From Zarea fungicola (Eukaryota; Ascomycota; Sordariomycetes; Hypocreales; Cordycipitaceae): 64,000 nucleotides of DNA. The stretch is taken from contig FWCC01000179.1 in the NCBI GenBank assembly GCA_900169235.1, positions 248,001 through 312,000 of the forward strand, given 5' to 3'. The notes below the pieces were generated by a model that did no database searches, was not told where the DNA came from, and saw nothing but the letters and a program-made list of their open reading frames with translations. Numbering within the stretch: position 1 is the first letter of the stretch; the number at the start of each line of letters is the position of its first letter. Both the position numbers and the translations under genes were made by a program. Positions 15,167 through 38,796 of this stretch are shown here, in pieces.

Positions 15167-17356
15167 ATGCAGAACCAGGAAAACGGCAAGCGGCCCGCGC
15201 AAGGGGTACTACCTGAAGATTCGTATGACGAACTTGACACCGAAGATGTTCCGTGGGAATGGATCTACGAAGACGAGGCAACGACAAAAGCTCAGGCAGA
15301 GGAGGGCGATCGTAAGCGACGCAAAGTCGCTGGCAAGCCAATTACTGGTGCTCGTCTAGGCACATTTGAGTGCCGAATAGGGGATACAGTGCTTCTCAAA
15401 GCTGATGGCTCGAATGAGGCGTGGGTAGCAATTATTTGCGAATTTGTTGAGGATGACGGTGACGGAGATAAGGCAGCCAGCTTCATGTGGTTCTCCACGG
15501 AAAAGGAGATTCGTAACAAGGACAAGAAGCGCAACGACTTTTACTGGAATGAACTGTATCTATCCCCTTCATGGGATGTCAATTCTCTTGCCTCCATAAA
15601 TGGCAAAGCCAGAGTCTTGTCTTTGGAAAAGTTTCTGTCACGGCATCCATCCGGCAAGATGCCGCGCAATTCTGCCGAGTACGGTAAAACATTTGTGTGT
15701 CGGCGTGGCTGTAATACGAGAACGGCCACGTACACGAATGAGTTTCTCTGGGAGGATGTATATAGCGGTGCCGACGATCTCTCGAGCCTTATGGATATGA
15801 TCGAAAGAGACACCAAGGCGAGTCGAAAGAAAAGGAGGGCAAGGAGTCCTACGTTCGTGGATAATGCATACTTTCCACCACAAACGCCTACCAAACAGCG
15901 AACGGCCGTGGCCACAACACCTCATTCGAGAGGTCGCACACCGCGCGGGGCAAGCAAGAAGCTTGAATTTACACCACTAGCCATGCGAAAACTGTCACCA
16001 AGCAACGTCCAGTCGTCACCATTTCAAATTGCACGCTCACGATTGCACGTATCTTCTGTGCCTGCCAGCTTACCCTGTCGCGAGGGCGAATTCTCTCTTG
16101 TCTACTCGCATCTTGAGGCTGCCATTTCCGAAGGCACAGGAAACTGCATTTACATATCTGGTACGCCGGGGACTGGCAAGACAGCCACGGTAAGAGAGGT
16201 TGTTTCTCGTTTGGAGGATGCTGTCGTCTCTGACGAGCTGGATGACTTCATCTTTGTCGAGATAAACGGCATGAAGATTACAGATCCCCATCAGTCATAC
16301 ACACTTCTCTGGGAGGCACTAAAGGGGCAGCGAGCGAGTCCAACGCAAGCCCTGGATCTTCTGGAGCGCGAGTTCAGCAATCCCAGTCCACGACGCACTC
16401 CATGTGTAGTCCTTATGGACGAGTTGGACCAGCTTGTAACTAAAAACCAAGCCGTCATGTACAACTTTTTCAACTGGCCTACGTTGCGTCACAGTCGGCT
16501 CATTGTTTTGGCTGTTGCCAATACCATGGATTTGCCCGAGAGAACTCTCAGTAACAAAATCAGCAGTCGTCTCGGTATGTCACTCATTCGATTCCACGAA
16601 GCAGCCACTAACCACATTACGACTGCAGGCCTTACTCGAATTACCTTCCCTGGCTATACACACGACCAGCTTATGAAAATTATACAGTCACGTCTAGAGG
16701 GAGTACCCGGAAATATCGTGGATGCAGATGCGGTTCAATTCGCTAGTAGAAAGGTTGCTGCAGTCAGTGGTGACGCCAGACGAGCACTAGACATATGCCG
16801 ACGGGCTGTCGAACTCGCCGAAGCAGATGCACCACCTGACCCATCTACGCCAAGCAAGAAAACCCCTGGAGGTGATACTACAGAACTATCACGACGCGGG
16901 CGCGTTACTATTGCCACGATTAAGAAAGCTATCAACGAGGCCACATCGAATCCTATCCAACAACATCTCCGCAGCTTGCCCCTCACGAGCAAACTTCTGA
17001 TGGCAGCCATGCTGCTTCGCATTAGAAGGACGGGTCTCGTGGAGACGACTTTTGGCGAGACGCTGGATGAACTGCAGCGCGTCTCAGCATATGCGCCGCG
17101 TGCCCCTCCAGGTATGGCGCAGATTCTTGGTAGCCATGCCAAGGGACCTGGCCAAGCTGGCATGCTCCAGCGGCACACAGGGCGGCCTGCGTATGTCCAT
17201 ACTGCCGCCCTCGATCTTGTCGCGGCAGGTTTAATCAACCTGGAGGCTCACCGTGCAGAAAGAAGCAGCAAGCTGCGGTTGGCCATAGCCGATGACGAGG
17301 TCAAGATGGCCTTGCGTGAGGACCCAGAACTGCGGGCACTGGGCATCAGTGTATAA
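15167..17356 (+). CDS. orc1: Origin recognition complex subunit 1
   Basis: ORC1 is the largest ORC subunit. It binds replication origins and, with ORC2-6 and Cdc6, loads MCM helicases in G1. The gene is a single exon of 729 residues. Residues about 75-200 match a BAH domain (GDTVLLKADGSNEAWVAII, FYWNELYLSPSWDV, GKTFVCRRGC), which contacts nucleosomes. A basic, proline-rich linker follows. The AAA+ module has Walker A GTPGTGKT at 332-339, Walker B VVLMDELD at 414-421, sensor I-like VLAVANTMDLPER, and an arginine-finger region (SSRLGMSLIRF). A winged-helix domain forms the C-terminus. The start is the first ATG and lies just downstream of the MCB pair. The gene converges with PRP46, with 92 bases between stop codons. 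Confidence 0.96.
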   Translation: MQNQENGKRPAQGVLPEDSYDELDTEDVPWEWIYEDEATTKAQAEEGDRKRRKVAGKPITGARLGTFECRIGDTVLLKADGSNEAWVAIICEFVEDDGDGDKAASFMWFSTEKEIRNKDKKRNDFYWNELYLSPSWDVNSLASINGKARVLSLEKFLSRHPSGKMPRNSAEYGKTFVCRRGCNTRTATYTNEFLWEDVYSGADDLSSLMDMIERDTKASRKKRRARSPTFVDNAYFPPQTPTKQRTAVATTPHSRGRTPRGASKKLEFTPLAMRKLSPSNVQSSPFQIARSRLHVSSVPASLPCREGEFSLVYSHLEAAISEGTGNCIYISGTPGTGKTATVREVVSRLEDAVVSDELDDFIFVEINGMKITDPHQSYTLLWEALKGQRASPTQALDLLEREFSNPSPRRTPCVVLMDELDQLVTKNQAVMYNFFNWPTLRHSRLIVLAVANTMDLPERTLSNKISSRLGMSLIRFHEAATNHITTAGLTRITFPGYTHDQLMKIIQSRLEGVPGNIVDADAVQFASRKVAAVSGDARRALDICRRAVELAEADAPPDPSTPSKKTPGGDTTELSRRGRVTIATIKKAINEATSNPIQQHLRSLPLTSKLLMAAMLLRIRRTGLVETTFGETLDELQRVSAYAPRAPPGMAQILGSHAKGPGQAGMLQRHTGRPAYVHTAALDLVAAGLINLEAHRAERSSKLRLAIADDEVKMALREDPELRALGISV

Positions 17357-34766: not shown

Positions 34767-34898
34767 TCCCCTGTAGCTCAGTTGGCTAGAGCGTCGTAAG
34801 TTGCTGACAATCATTCCAATGATGTATAATTAGCATACTAATATCCAGTTCAGAGACTGTTAATCTGAAGGTCGCAAGTTCAAACCTTGCCGGGGGAG
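34767..34898 (+). tRNA. tRNA-Asn(GUU)-like gene with a spliceosomal-type intron, copy 1
   Basis: The 5' exon is 34767-34795 and the 3' exon 34854-34898 (74 nt joined). The joined molecule folds as a standard tRNA: acceptor TCCCCTG/CGGGGGA with G73, D stem GCTC/GAGC, anticodon stem TCAGA/TCTGA with loop CTGTTAA (anticodon GUU), variable AGGTC, and T stem GCAAG/CTTGC with loop TTCAAAC. The A box is TAGCTCAGTTGG and the B box GTTCAAACC. The intron (34796-34853, 58 nt) lies between positions 28 and 29, not at the canonical 37/38. It starts GTAAGT, has TACTAAT with its branch A 12 nt before the 3' end, and ends CAG. Without splicing the 5' half of the anticodon stem is broken. A T5 run follows at 34918. 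Expression and splicing are unproven. Confidence 0.85.
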
Positions 34899-34917
34899 GA
34901 CCACTGTTCTCCATAAC

Positions 34918-34922
34918 TTTTT
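34918..34922 (+). terminator. Pol III terminator (T5) after tRNA-like copy 1
   Basis: TTTTT begins 20 bases past the tRNA 3' end, and a second run of six T follows at 34926-34931. Pol III stops at runs of four or more T. Confidence 0.65.
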
Positions 34923-35059
34923 GTCTTTTTTGCCTTGCAAATATAACCAACTTGTCTTTTACAAAGCAGTAGGAGATTATGGTATTTTTATCTGACTCTG
35001 CTTCGAGTGTATTCCCTTTTACAAATTAATAAGTAAGCCGGACGTTAACCGACTATTGG

Positions 35060-35190
35060 TCCCCTGTAGCTCAGTTGGCTAGAGCGTCGTAAGTTTCCTG
35101 CAACACATGAAAATAGTAAAGTTAGCCTACTAACAACATATCTAGAGACTGTTAATCTGAAGGTCGCAAGTTCAAACCTTGCCGGGGGAG
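35060..35190 (+). tRNA. tRNA-Asn(GUU)-like gene with a spliceosomal-type intron, copy 2
   Basis: The two exons (35060-35088 and 35146-35190) are base-for-base the same as in copy 1 and give the same cloverleaf with anticodon GUU. The intron (35089-35145, 57 nt) is at the same place but otherwise unlike that of copy 1. It begins GTAAGT, contains a perfect TACTAAC (35128-35134) with its branch A 12 nt before the 3' end, and ends CTAG. The upstream flank shares scattered words with copy 1 (AGCCGG, GACC/GACTATT), so the copies arose by segmental duplication. GG before the first base and GACC after the discriminator G are also kept. A T5 run follows at 35212. Confidence 0.85.
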
Positions 35191-35211
35191 GACCATCCTC
35201 TGTTGTTTATA

Positions 35212-35216
35212 TTTTT
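35212..35216 (+). terminator. Pol III terminator (T5) after tRNA-like copy 2
   Basis: TTTTT begins 22 bases past the 3' end of copy 2, at nearly the same distance as in the other copies. Confidence 0.65.
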
Positions 35217-35825
35217 GGCTGTTGAAGTTACCAATACGCCTAGGGACTTGAAAGAAGGAGTGTTTGTACTTATGTGTACGCATGAGCGTTAACATTGGGG
35301 GCTCGTTTACTCCAGGCTCCTATTGTGTTCTTTTCCGGCTCTACTATGAACTTGCACGGACTCATCTTTTTTTGCTTGTGTTTCTTTTGAATGTCCTCTA
35401 CTCTGCAGGGTTGGTGTTTGATGCAACTTGTAAATGCTAGGTACCGTGCGGCTGGTTGTTGGTCTCATCTTGTAATCTGATTATCTAGATGTACCTGTTG
35501 ATAAGCGCCTCGACAATATCACGGGCAGCATCAGGACAGTTTACCAGAGAGAGTAGTAACGCAATGCAAGATGCAACCGGCCCCTACTTAGGAAAAAAGT
35601 AAAAGAAAAAGTATTATTGATAATTGCTACACACGCCCAAATGTAGTTGCAAAGGCAACTGCTATGCCTCGGTCGTCCCAGTGCAGGGTAAGGACCAGGC
35701 TGCCAAAAACACAAAATCATTGCTTGGCCGTTTGTAAGAAGCAAACAACAAAGTGTGGCGGGCACGAGCTAACTTAGTCCTAGCCAAAGCCAGGGTAGGA
35801 AATTTATTTAGTTTGTCCAAAAAGC
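35217..35825. other. Spacer between tRNA-like copies 2 and 3
   Basis: About 600 bases separate the convergent copies 2 and 3. The only ORFs are short and lack family features. No repeat joining the two copies is visible. Confidence 0.4.
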
Positions 35826-35830
35826 AAAAA
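35826..35830 (-). terminator. Pol III terminator (T5) after tRNA-like copy 3
   Basis: Five A on the plus strand give TTTTT on the transcribed strand, beginning 18 bases past the 3' end of copy 3. Confidence 0.65.
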
Positions 35831-35847
35831 GTAAGGAGGATCAGGTC

Positions 35848-35984
35848 CTCCCCCGGCAAGGTTTGAACTTGCGACCTTCAGATTAACAGTCTCTGATAAG
35901 AGAGTTAGTAACCAATCCTGGTTGCCAGTTCATTGACGAATGTACTTTAACTTACGACGCTCTAGCCAACTGAGCTACAGGGGA
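35848..35984 (-). tRNA. tRNA-Asn(GUU)-like gene with a spliceosomal-type intron, copy 3
   Basis: On the minus strand, exon 1 is 35984-35956 and exon 2 is 35892-35848. Both are identical to the exons of copies 1 and 2. The intron (35955-35893, 63 nt) again starts GTAAGT, carries TACTAAC (35910-35904) with its branch A 12 nt before the 3' end, and ends TCAG. Beyond these signals it shares no sequence with the other two introns. The conserved block extends to GG before the first base and GACC after the last. This copy is inverted relative to copies 1 and 2, so the three are not a simple tandem array. Confidence 0.85.
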
Positions 35985-36624: not shown

Positions 36625-38796
36625 ATGGGCGATCATCGGATGATGCGAGGCGTTATCGAAACCTGCATAAATGCTTTCTACGCCTGTCACTCTCGGCATG
36701 CTAAGTTCAATGGCATCGAAGCGCAATTGAGCTGCTCTTGCAATTCACAGTTGGAGCGAAGACCAACCTGTGGGACTTGTGTTGCAAGATTAATCTCAGA
36801 AGCAATATCTATCACCCTTTCGCCACCACAACTCGAAAATTTGATTGAGTTCCTGATGCAAAGAGAGCCACTGGCCCCGGACGCCGGCCATCTGAAGATT
36901 CTTAAAGGCGAGAAGCTGAGAGAGTTCTACGCTGCTGAGACACGAACTTCCGGGGAGAGCGATGCGAGACTAGCAGATTCGAGTGGACCAGAGAATGCAC
37001 TTTTAGGTATAATCCTGCACGTCCAAAGTGAGGACGATACTATCGGAGAGTTCTGGGATATGCGTAGTGCAACTATAGGGCTTATCGAAGAAAAAGGCAT
37101 CGATCCTGATTTTGCTTTCGGATACGATTGGCATTGGAGAGCTAACGACTCGTTCCATTCCTCTCAACGTCCAGGCTGCCCGGCCGCTCGATGGCGACGA
37201 GAGCTCCGGGCTCTACATGATCAGATGTCTATGGATATCCTTCACCTATTACCGCTGCCATTTGTCATCACAGGATCCAGCTGTGTTCGGGAAAGCATAC
37301 GAAAAAACTTCCACGAGAATCTTATCCCACTGGAAATTCCACTGAAAACTGGTATTATACCAGAGGCTGCAACATTACGACTAGATATTGAGTATAGACT
37401 CGACACAATCCAACGCATATTTTGTCACGTTCATCATCCATCGGCTGGATTTTTTGCCACAAAAGATATTCGCGCAAGCATGGCTCTCCAGATAGATGCC
37501 GGAATGAACTTTTTTCTCTGGCTAATCGGACGGCGATATGACGGAAACACTTTTGGGCGTCATTACAAGTTCGCAGCTCCCCGAGCAAACAAAGCAGCCC
37601 CGTTACCCGAGATGTGGGCATATGTGCGAAAGGAAAGAGAAACTGGACGGAGTCTAACATTACAAGAGTACTCACCATCATTTCTTACCTGGGCTCGACG
37701 TTTTCTGGGAGACACTTTTCCCAGCGGGGTTTTGCCGGTAGGAGAGTCGGTAGCGGACAGAATTGCAACTGAAATACGCCGAAGACTTAGCCTTGCTGCT
37801 ACGGAACGATACTGTCGTCGAAAGGAAAACCTTTTGGTCAACGAGCTTGAAATTGTTGCCCCCGTTGATGAAATCCTCACGACATCTGTCGCTGCCGAGA
37901 AGCGTCCCGAGCTGACGGAGACTGACCTGGCGCTGTATGGGGAAAGGCAAATGAAGAAAAAATACGTTCAGGATGATATTGGAACGCAACTACTGACGCT
38001 TCACGGGTCCCAAGTTACAATTATGCGGTCAGGTTTTGTAAAACTTCAGACGCACAATTCTCATCAACTTAAATTTCGTCTTGCGAATAAGACCGCTAAA
38101 GAAATTTTAAAACTCGGAGAAACTCTGAGAATTTTCTTTTCAGTAAGGGAGCTAAGCATCTTAGTCAATGAGAATGTGGTCTATCAGAAGCCTATTGAGA
38201 GGCTTTTGGCTTCTGCCGAAGGGCCGGCTTGGTTTAGCCAAATCATGCACGAGATTAATGGAATTAAAAACTCAAAAACGGGGCCAAGAAACACTCAGGA
38301 GACAGCTATTCATGATATTCAACGCATAGAGCACCATGCAGGTCTTGGAAGTGGCTGGAAAAAAGGCGAGCTGCGGCGAAAGCTACTGGAGGGCGATTTA
38401 TTTCACTGTGGCAGAGGGAATATTAACGGAAGGCTATATGGAAGGGTGTCGTTTCGCGGCATTCAAATCTGGATACCCGAAGAGGCAGATGCTGCGTCCG
38501 TTTGGATACATTGCTTCATGGTTCCAATGGGATCCCAGCATCCATCTCAATGCTGCAACACGGGGCCGCTCGATGATCCCTGCCGGCGTCTTGGTGTCAA
38601 AATACGATATGTAGTGGCAACCAACCGATCCGAAAAGGAACAGTGGATCACTTGGAAGGGGGAAAAGAGTGCTAAAAAGCTAAATTCCTTAGTTGACTTT
38701 TTGGAACACCGGAATGATATCTGGACAGAATCCCAACCGCGACGATTCTTGGACCGAAATCTGAGCAGAGGAAGAAAGAACATTATGTATACATAA
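36625..38796 (+). CDS. Uncharacterised 723-residue intronless ORF
   Basis: A single exon opens at the first ATG in frame and encodes 723 residues of ordinary complexity. I believe related hypothetical proteins occur in many filamentous ascomycetes, but I know no function. Recognisable pieces are an N-terminal cysteine cluster (CSCNSQLERRPTCGTC), a PLAPDAGHLKILKGEKLREFY block, ALLGIILHVQSEDDTIGEFWDM, a repeated 'HHPSAGFF' region, PSFLTWARRFLGD, and a beta-rich segment around TIMRSGFVKLQTHNSHQLKF. There is no signal peptide or clear transmembrane segment. No stop interrupts the frame, so it is not decayed despite lying in the gene-poor part of the window next to the tRNA-like copies. It could belong to a dispersed accessory gene family. 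Confidence 0.75.
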   Translation: MGDHRMMRGVIETCINAFYACHSRHAKFNGIEAQLSCSCNSQLERRPTCGTCVARLISEAISITLSPPQLENLIEFLMQREPLAPDAGHLKILKGEKLREFYAAETRTSGESDARLADSSGPENALLGIILHVQSEDDTIGEFWDMRSATIGLIEEKGIDPDFAFGYDWHWRANDSFHSSQRPGCPAARWRRELRALHDQMSMDILHLLPLPFVITGSSCVRESIRKNFHENLIPLEIPLKTGIIPEAATLRLDIEYRLDTIQRIFCHVHHPSAGFFATKDIRASMALQIDAGMNFFLWLIGRRYDGNTFGRHYKFAAPRANKAAPLPEMWAYVRKERETGRSLTLQEYSPSFLTWARRFLGDTFPSGVLPVGESVADRIATEIRRRLSLAATERYCRRKENLLVNELEIVAPVDEILTTSVAAEKRPELTETDLALYGERQMKKKYVQDDIGTQLLTLHGSQVTIMRSGFVKLQTHNSHQLKFRLANKTAKEILKLGETLRIFFSVRELSILVNENVVYQKPIERLLASAEGPAWFSQIMHEINGIKNSKTGPRNTQETAIHDIQRIEHHAGLGSGWKKGELRRKLLEGDLFHCGRGNINGRLYGRVSFRGIQIWIPEEADAASVWIHCFMVPMGSQHPSQCCNTGPLDDPCRRLGVKIRYVVATNRSEKEQWITWKGEKSAKKLNSLVDFLEHRNDIWTESQPRRFLDRNLSRGRKNIMYT

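Follow-up and report, generated by a model that had tools for sequence, protein, structure and literature searches.

How can a nuclear tRNA gene yield its product when the sequence that interrupts it carries the signals of an mRNA intron? Canonical eukaryotic nuclear tRNA introns lie at position 37/38 and are removed by the tRNA splicing endonuclease. The question is raised by three tRNA-Asn(GUU) genes in a 64,000-nucleotide stretch of Zarea fungicola DNA, the whole of which was analyzed and is referred to here as the window. The inserts of all three open with GTAAGTT and sit after nucleotide 29 of the gene, that is, after tRNA position 28. As established by direct reading and measurement, copy 1 (34767-34898, plus strand) comprises a 29-nt exon 1 (34767-34795; tRNA positions 1-28), a 58-nt intron (34796-34853) and an exon 2 (34854-34898) that starts at position 29 and holds the anticodon GTT and the discriminator G73. 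Its intron begins with GTAAGT (34796-34801), contains TACTAAT (34836-34842) with the branch A at 34841, and ends in CAG (34851-34853); a T5 run resembling a Pol III terminator follows the gene at 34918-34922, and then a T6 run at 34926-34931. Copy 2 (35060-35190, plus strand) is built in the same way, with exon 1 at 35060-35088, a 57-nt intron at 35089-35145 (GTAAGT; TACTAAC at 35128-35134; branch A at 35133; 3' TAG), exon 2 at 35146-35190, and a T5 run at 35212-35216. Copy 3 (35848-35984) lies on the minus strand, with exon 1 at 35956-35984, a 63-nt intron at 35893-35955 (GTAAGT; TACTAAC; branch A at 35905; 3' CAG), exon 2 at 35848-35892, and its T5 run, read as AAAAA on the plus strand, at 35826-35830. 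The intron of copy 1 contains an extra CAG 7 nt past the branch A and before the 3' CAG, which means that splicing would have to use the second AG.

Joining the exons yields a 74-nt RNA, identical across the three window copies, which ARAGORN folds into a complete Asn(GTT) cloverleaf with G73. Neither a default tRNA scan nor an Rfam scan at gathering thresholds gave a match at the Asn loci or elsewhere in the window, and ARAGORN detects the three loci only when introns are allowed; copy 3 is then called tRNA-Phe because the program places the intron elsewhere. A first-pass annotation, made from the letters of the window, had placed inserts at 28/29 in three Asn(GUU) copies, had described them as starting with GTAAGT, containing TACTAAC or TACTAAT, whose branch A lies at a distance of 12 nt from the 3' end, and closing with CAG or TAG, and had held that their removal restores the cloverleaf. 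Its placement proved exact to the base, and both the signals, seen in all three copies, and the restored fold were reproduced. Adjoining the tRNA array is a 722-codon open frame (36628-38793, plus strand) with no Pfam match. The window also encodes ORC1 (15173-17353), whose sequence identity is 90% to Zarea fungicola, 89% to Akanthomyces lecanii, and 87% to Beauveria; the first two belong to Cordycipitaceae, Hypocreales, and this one protein places the DNA in that family.

The same kind of intron was found elsewhere in the genome. In the assembly that was searched (43.1 Mb in 456 contigs), 14 mRNA-type introns of 53 to 75 nt were identified in 11 tRNA genes of four isotypes (Asn, Thr, Leu, and Trp), at positions 24/25, 28/29, 34/35, 35/36, and 47/48. 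Because introns that share a position have a common origin, they are not independent, and the count represents five positions and not 14 events. Two further Asn genes have the arrangement seen in the window, one at C391:228777 with a 63-nt intron and one at C323:44434 with a 75-nt intron (positions of the pattern match). A scan for GTAAGT, CTAAY, and a T loop returned 16 matches, 6 of which are tRNA genes; 5 of the others were examined and, according to ARAGORN, are not tRNAs. A tRNA-Thr(CGU) gene on C172 is split within the anticodon, between positions 35 and 36, by an intron of 69 nt, and its joined exons are identical at 72/72 bases to an intronless Thr(CGU) gene on C170. The flanks of the two genes differ, as judged by eye in the sequence displayed, and at the sequence level this intronless twin confirms the intron borders of the C172 gene.

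A second scan, for CTAAY and a B box, gave 33 matches; among the 10 inspected were four tRNA-Trp(CCA) genes, located on C318, C341, and C357 (two). All four contain a 53- to 56-nt GTACGT...CTAAC...CAG intron in the variable loop at 47/48; the GTACGT start is preferred here over a GT two bases upstream because it would leave a normal five-base variable loop. Three of the four also carry a D-arm intron at 24/25 (54 to 60 nt, GTTAGT...TACTAAY...CAG), and the fourth, C357:103653, is continuous across the junction that the other three form. In addition, each of the four holds a canonical intron of 11 to 14 nt at 37/38. A tRNA-Leu(UAA) gene on C98 likewise combines a canonical intron with a 58-nt GTAAGC...AACTAAC...CAG intron at 34/35. 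The presence of both kinds of intron in the Trp and Leu(UAA) genes implies that two splicing machines act on one tRNA. All five distinct exon-joined tRNAs form ARAGORN cloverleaves with the correct anticodon, that of Trp with one mismatch at 31:39. The scan for ordinary copies, described below, covered Asn, and we make no claim that every Trp, Thr, or Leu gene has such introns. A tRNA family search, which listed the Leu gene on C98, scored 63 of 1,250 first-look candidates; nuclear Ala, Cys, and Pro are not among its listed genes that were read, which, given the fraction scored, proves nothing about their absence.

To what do these introns correspond? The GT-AG borders are present in 14/14, with 5' sites GTAAGT (6), GTTAGT (3), GTACGT (4), and GTAAGC (1), as is a CTAAY branch site whose A lies 12 nt from the intron end in 10 cases and 11 nt in 4. 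Exact joining, as expected of U2-type introns, restores the host gene, as judged by the Thr identity and the cloverleaves. The pattern GTAAGT-TACTAAC-YAG has 119 matches in the genome versus 39 for the reversed pattern, a count in which multiple AGs per branch site are scored separately and in which three of the listed introns are tRNA introns. The matches listed, a part of the 119, contain 90 distinct introns; leaving out the 3 tRNA introns and 5 others whose sequence was listed only in part gives 82 non-tRNA introns, presumed to be mostly from mRNA genes. Among these 82, a branch distance of 12 is the commonest (16/82) and distances of 11 to 13 account for 32, with a median of 13 and a range of 8 to 26, so that the spacing is tighter in the tRNA introns (11 to 12) than in the listed others. 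A catalase-peroxidase gene contains a 58-nt intron with GTAAGT, TACTAAT, and a branch distance of 12. Its excision restores the reading frame and gives a fragment of 97 residues that can be aligned over its entire length to catalase-peroxidases of solved structure (E = 2.2e-39), and it is certainly an mRNA intron. The resemblance to the mRNA introns of the genome that had been proposed from the window alone is borne out by the shared signals and branch spacing and by this gene.

In other eukaryotes, U6 is transcribed by Pol III. The sole U6 match in the genome (C377:4441-) is interrupted between GGAT and GACACGC by a 59-nt GTAAGT...CACTAAC...CAG insert with a branch distance of 13 (intron at L087 1568-1626). 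The joined exons form what we take to be the normal U6 sequence. The intron also contains a B-box-like GTTCGAAACC. In Schizosaccharomyces pombe, U6 is a Pol III transcript with an mRNA-type intron that is removed by the spliceosome (PMC8917221). Together, the intron found here and the splicing of S. pombe U6 mean that the one accepted precedent is already present in this genome. The U6 introns of S. pombe and some other fungi are like the tRNA introns described here in placing GT, branch site, and AG within a short gene of the Pol III type; they differ in that the present hosts are tRNAs of several isotypes, occupied at several positions, and in that the Trp and Leu genes also carry a canonical endonuclease intron.

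The best explanation, which we consider highly probable, is that these are working nuclear tRNA genes with U2-type spliceosomal introns that the spliceosome removes. The gene would be transcribed, most likely by Pol III, from the internal A and B boxes to the downstream T run. In the transcript, the spliceosome would use GTAAGT, the branch site TACTAAY, and, 12 nt farther on, the AG; the exons that it joins could form the cloverleaf. For Trp and Leu(UAA), the tRNA endonuclease would remove the second, canonical 37/38 intron either after or before the spliceosome acts. Counting against this explanation are T runs within introns, the AG of copy 1 that would have to be skipped, the A31-C39 mismatch of the Trp anticodon stem, and the common descent of introns that share a position.

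The usual coupling of the spliceosome to Pol II favors a different account, in which the loci are Pol II transcripts that are spliced and capped, the tRNA is then cut out, and no Pol III transcript is spliced. T runs of the introns bear on the same point: Asn C391 and Leu C98 have intronic T5 runs that would hamper Pol III, and Asn C323 has an intronic T4 run; such runs could impose an early Pol III stop. However, the internal tRNA promoter boxes are intact, as judged by eye, and a run of T5 or longer occurs within 60 nt downstream of 11/11 intron-bearing tRNA genes. Among ordinary tRNA genes, 20/21 have T5 or longer over the same distance downstream and the remaining one has T4. Furthermore, the genome's own U6 has such an intron, and the S. 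pombe counterpart is made by Pol III and spliced by the spliceosome (PMC8917221). A Pol II origin is therefore improbable, and transcription of the intron-bearing tRNA genes by Pol III appears likely.

Still less probable is that the inserts are ectopic BHB introns of the endonuclease, like those known from Cyanidioschyzon merolae and archaea, and that their mRNA-like motifs are incidental. The machinery that canonical introns need is present in the genome, with two matches to the endonuclease family PF01974 and one to the Trl1-type ligase domain PF09511, and multiple ectopic tRNA introns are described in C. merolae (PMC9602550). None of the 14 introns lies at 37/38, however, all being at the five other positions. 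A BHB-type 4-bp central helix can be drawn for 5/5 canonical introns of the same genes (3 to 48 of 500 shuffles are as good) versus 2/14 of the new introns, those of Asn copy 1 and the D arm of Trp C318, which are equaled by 76 and 38 of 500 shuffles, respectively. The rate of 2/14 is at chance level, and the introns thus seem to have neither the helix and bulge of endonuclease substrates nor the BHB structure. The canonical or BHB assignment was rejected on these grounds, that is, the helix in only 2/14 and positions other than 37/38; it would also leave unexplained why GT...CTAAY...AG with fixed spacing recurs in 14/14. The remark in the first-pass annotation that the borders are unlike those of tRNA endonuclease substrates is in line with the comparison to the five canonical controls.

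The spliceosomal introns proposed here can thus be set beside several known kinds. Like canonical nuclear tRNA introns, they are found inside nuclear tRNA genes, and the same gene may carry both; unlike them, they occupy other positions, bear mRNA-type signals, and lack the BHB at 12/14. Eukaryotic tRNA genes are described as limited to one intron (PMC8450103), with C. merolae as an exception (PMC9602550). The ectopic introns of C. merolae, archaea, and the Guillardia nucleomorph likewise lie at noncanonical positions, and PMC9602550 and PMC3978253 give up to three introns per tRNA gene in such systems, but these introns are defined by BHB structure (although not always in Guillardia, PMC3978253) and not by splice site sequence. 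The spliceosome-type introns of fungal nuclear rDNA, represented by a title cited within PMC11782384, are also mRNA-type introns in a noncoding RNA gene not transcribed by Pol II; their host RNA and polymerase differ from those of the tRNA introns.

Could the genes instead be dead, broken by insertions, while the cell uses other tRNA-Asn genes? The existence of an intronless Thr(CGU) gene means that the intron-bearing Thr copy could be dispensable, and an assembly in 456 contigs may lack genes. The genome was scanned for ordinary Asn genes, intronless or with a 37/38 intron, a check that the first-pass annotation had put forward. A whole-genome scan with an anticodon-to-T-loop Asn pattern, allowing up to 2 mismatches, gave 16 matches (17 for the control). 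Five are exact, and all five carry the insert; for the other 11, which have 2 mismatches, ARAGORN gives Thr- or Arg-labeled tRNAs or nothing, and Asn in 0/11. A short-intron pattern for a canonical 37/38 Asn gene, used without a positive control, had 0 matches in the genome. The pattern scans thus find five nuclear Asn genes, all of which bear the insert, and no ordinary one. A mitochondrial tRNA-Asn without the insert is located on C218, as expected because the organelle has its own tRNA set.

The Asn genes also differ among themselves in a manner that argues against decay. They form two families that differ at 12/74 bases, and within each family the exons are identical while the introns differ. 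As read by eye from the cloverleaf, 8 of the 12 differences are compensatory two-sided changes at 7:66, 28:42, 29:41, and 50:64; of the remainder, one converts U6:G67 to C6:G67 and three are unpaired, and no pair is broken. The intron splits two of the compensated pairs, 28:42 and 29:41. Exon 1 ends with base 28 and exon 2 opens with base 29, and compensation at the pairs of these two bases therefore points to selection on the joined RNA. The window copies have exons that are 100% identical, whereas the interiors of the introns (15 pairs among five Asn introns and one Thr intron) never exceed the maximum of 200 shuffles. The pairs nearest to that limit are window copies 1 and 2, with an interior identity of 0.629 against a maximum of 0.639, and C391 and Thr, which equal their maximum of 0.574. 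The dead-gene account was rejected on the absence of ordinary Asn copies from the scans and on the exon identity, and we regard it as extremely unlikely. Group I or II self-splicing was rejected, as no Rfam family reached the cutoff in the window and the inserts are only 53 to 75 nt long.

The first-pass annotation had suggested that a tRNA precursor may be spliced by the spliceosome, leaving the choice between Pol III and Pol II open. The failure to find an ordinary Asn gene, the borders unlike those of endonuclease introns, the Thr, Leu, and Trp cases, and the Thr twin all lend support to this suggestion. A known kind of intron, the spliceosomal one, would then have a new type of host, the tRNA. 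The open-license PMC literature yielded no account of tRNA genes with spliceosomal introns; subscription papers and preprints lie outside that scope and may hold one. In two sequence collections that contain no fungi, the intron-bearing Asn pattern gave 3 matches in viral_contigs, none with a tRNA, and 0 in genome_contigs. The exon-only pattern gave one match in each, both ordinary intronless tRNA-Asn genes, from a viral contig and an archaeal assembly, respectively.

It is probable that Z. fungicola has a second, spliceosomal route for splicing nuclear tRNAs, without which at least tRNA-Asn could not be made, that tRNA-Trp and tRNA-Leu(UAA) need both the spliceosome and the endonuclease, and that introns entered Pol III genes at several sites, maybe widely in Cordycipitaceae. 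Such a spread would escape notice, as introns of this kind are not modeled by tRNA finders. If this is true, decoding in Z. fungicola depends on the spliceosome, and two splicing systems serve tRNA maturation within one nucleus. The link between spliceosome and Pol II would be loosened on a scale beyond U6, and spliceosomal introns could arise in tRNA genes, even within the anticodon. Moreover, tRNA finders that allow for 37/38 or BHB introns would overlook real tRNA genes. The Thr and Trp paralogues with and without an intron would offer a direct system for studying intron gain and loss outside mRNA.

Some further features of the tRNA loci were observed. A tRNA-like sequence at C309:13985-14057, labeled Thr(ggt) by ARAGORN, looks bacterial, has an unusual anticodon loop, and is a pseudogene or a stray sequence. 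The A31-C39 mismatch is common to all four exon-joined tRNA-Trp sequences. Finally, the 3' trailer TTCAATTCCCACC(A/T)TTCGGTG recurs in all four Trp copies; it forms another hairpin that resembles a T arm and matches the B box strongly, and it also includes a small CACC/GGTG hairpin. The trailer B box is perhaps a displaced B box in genes that introns have stretched.
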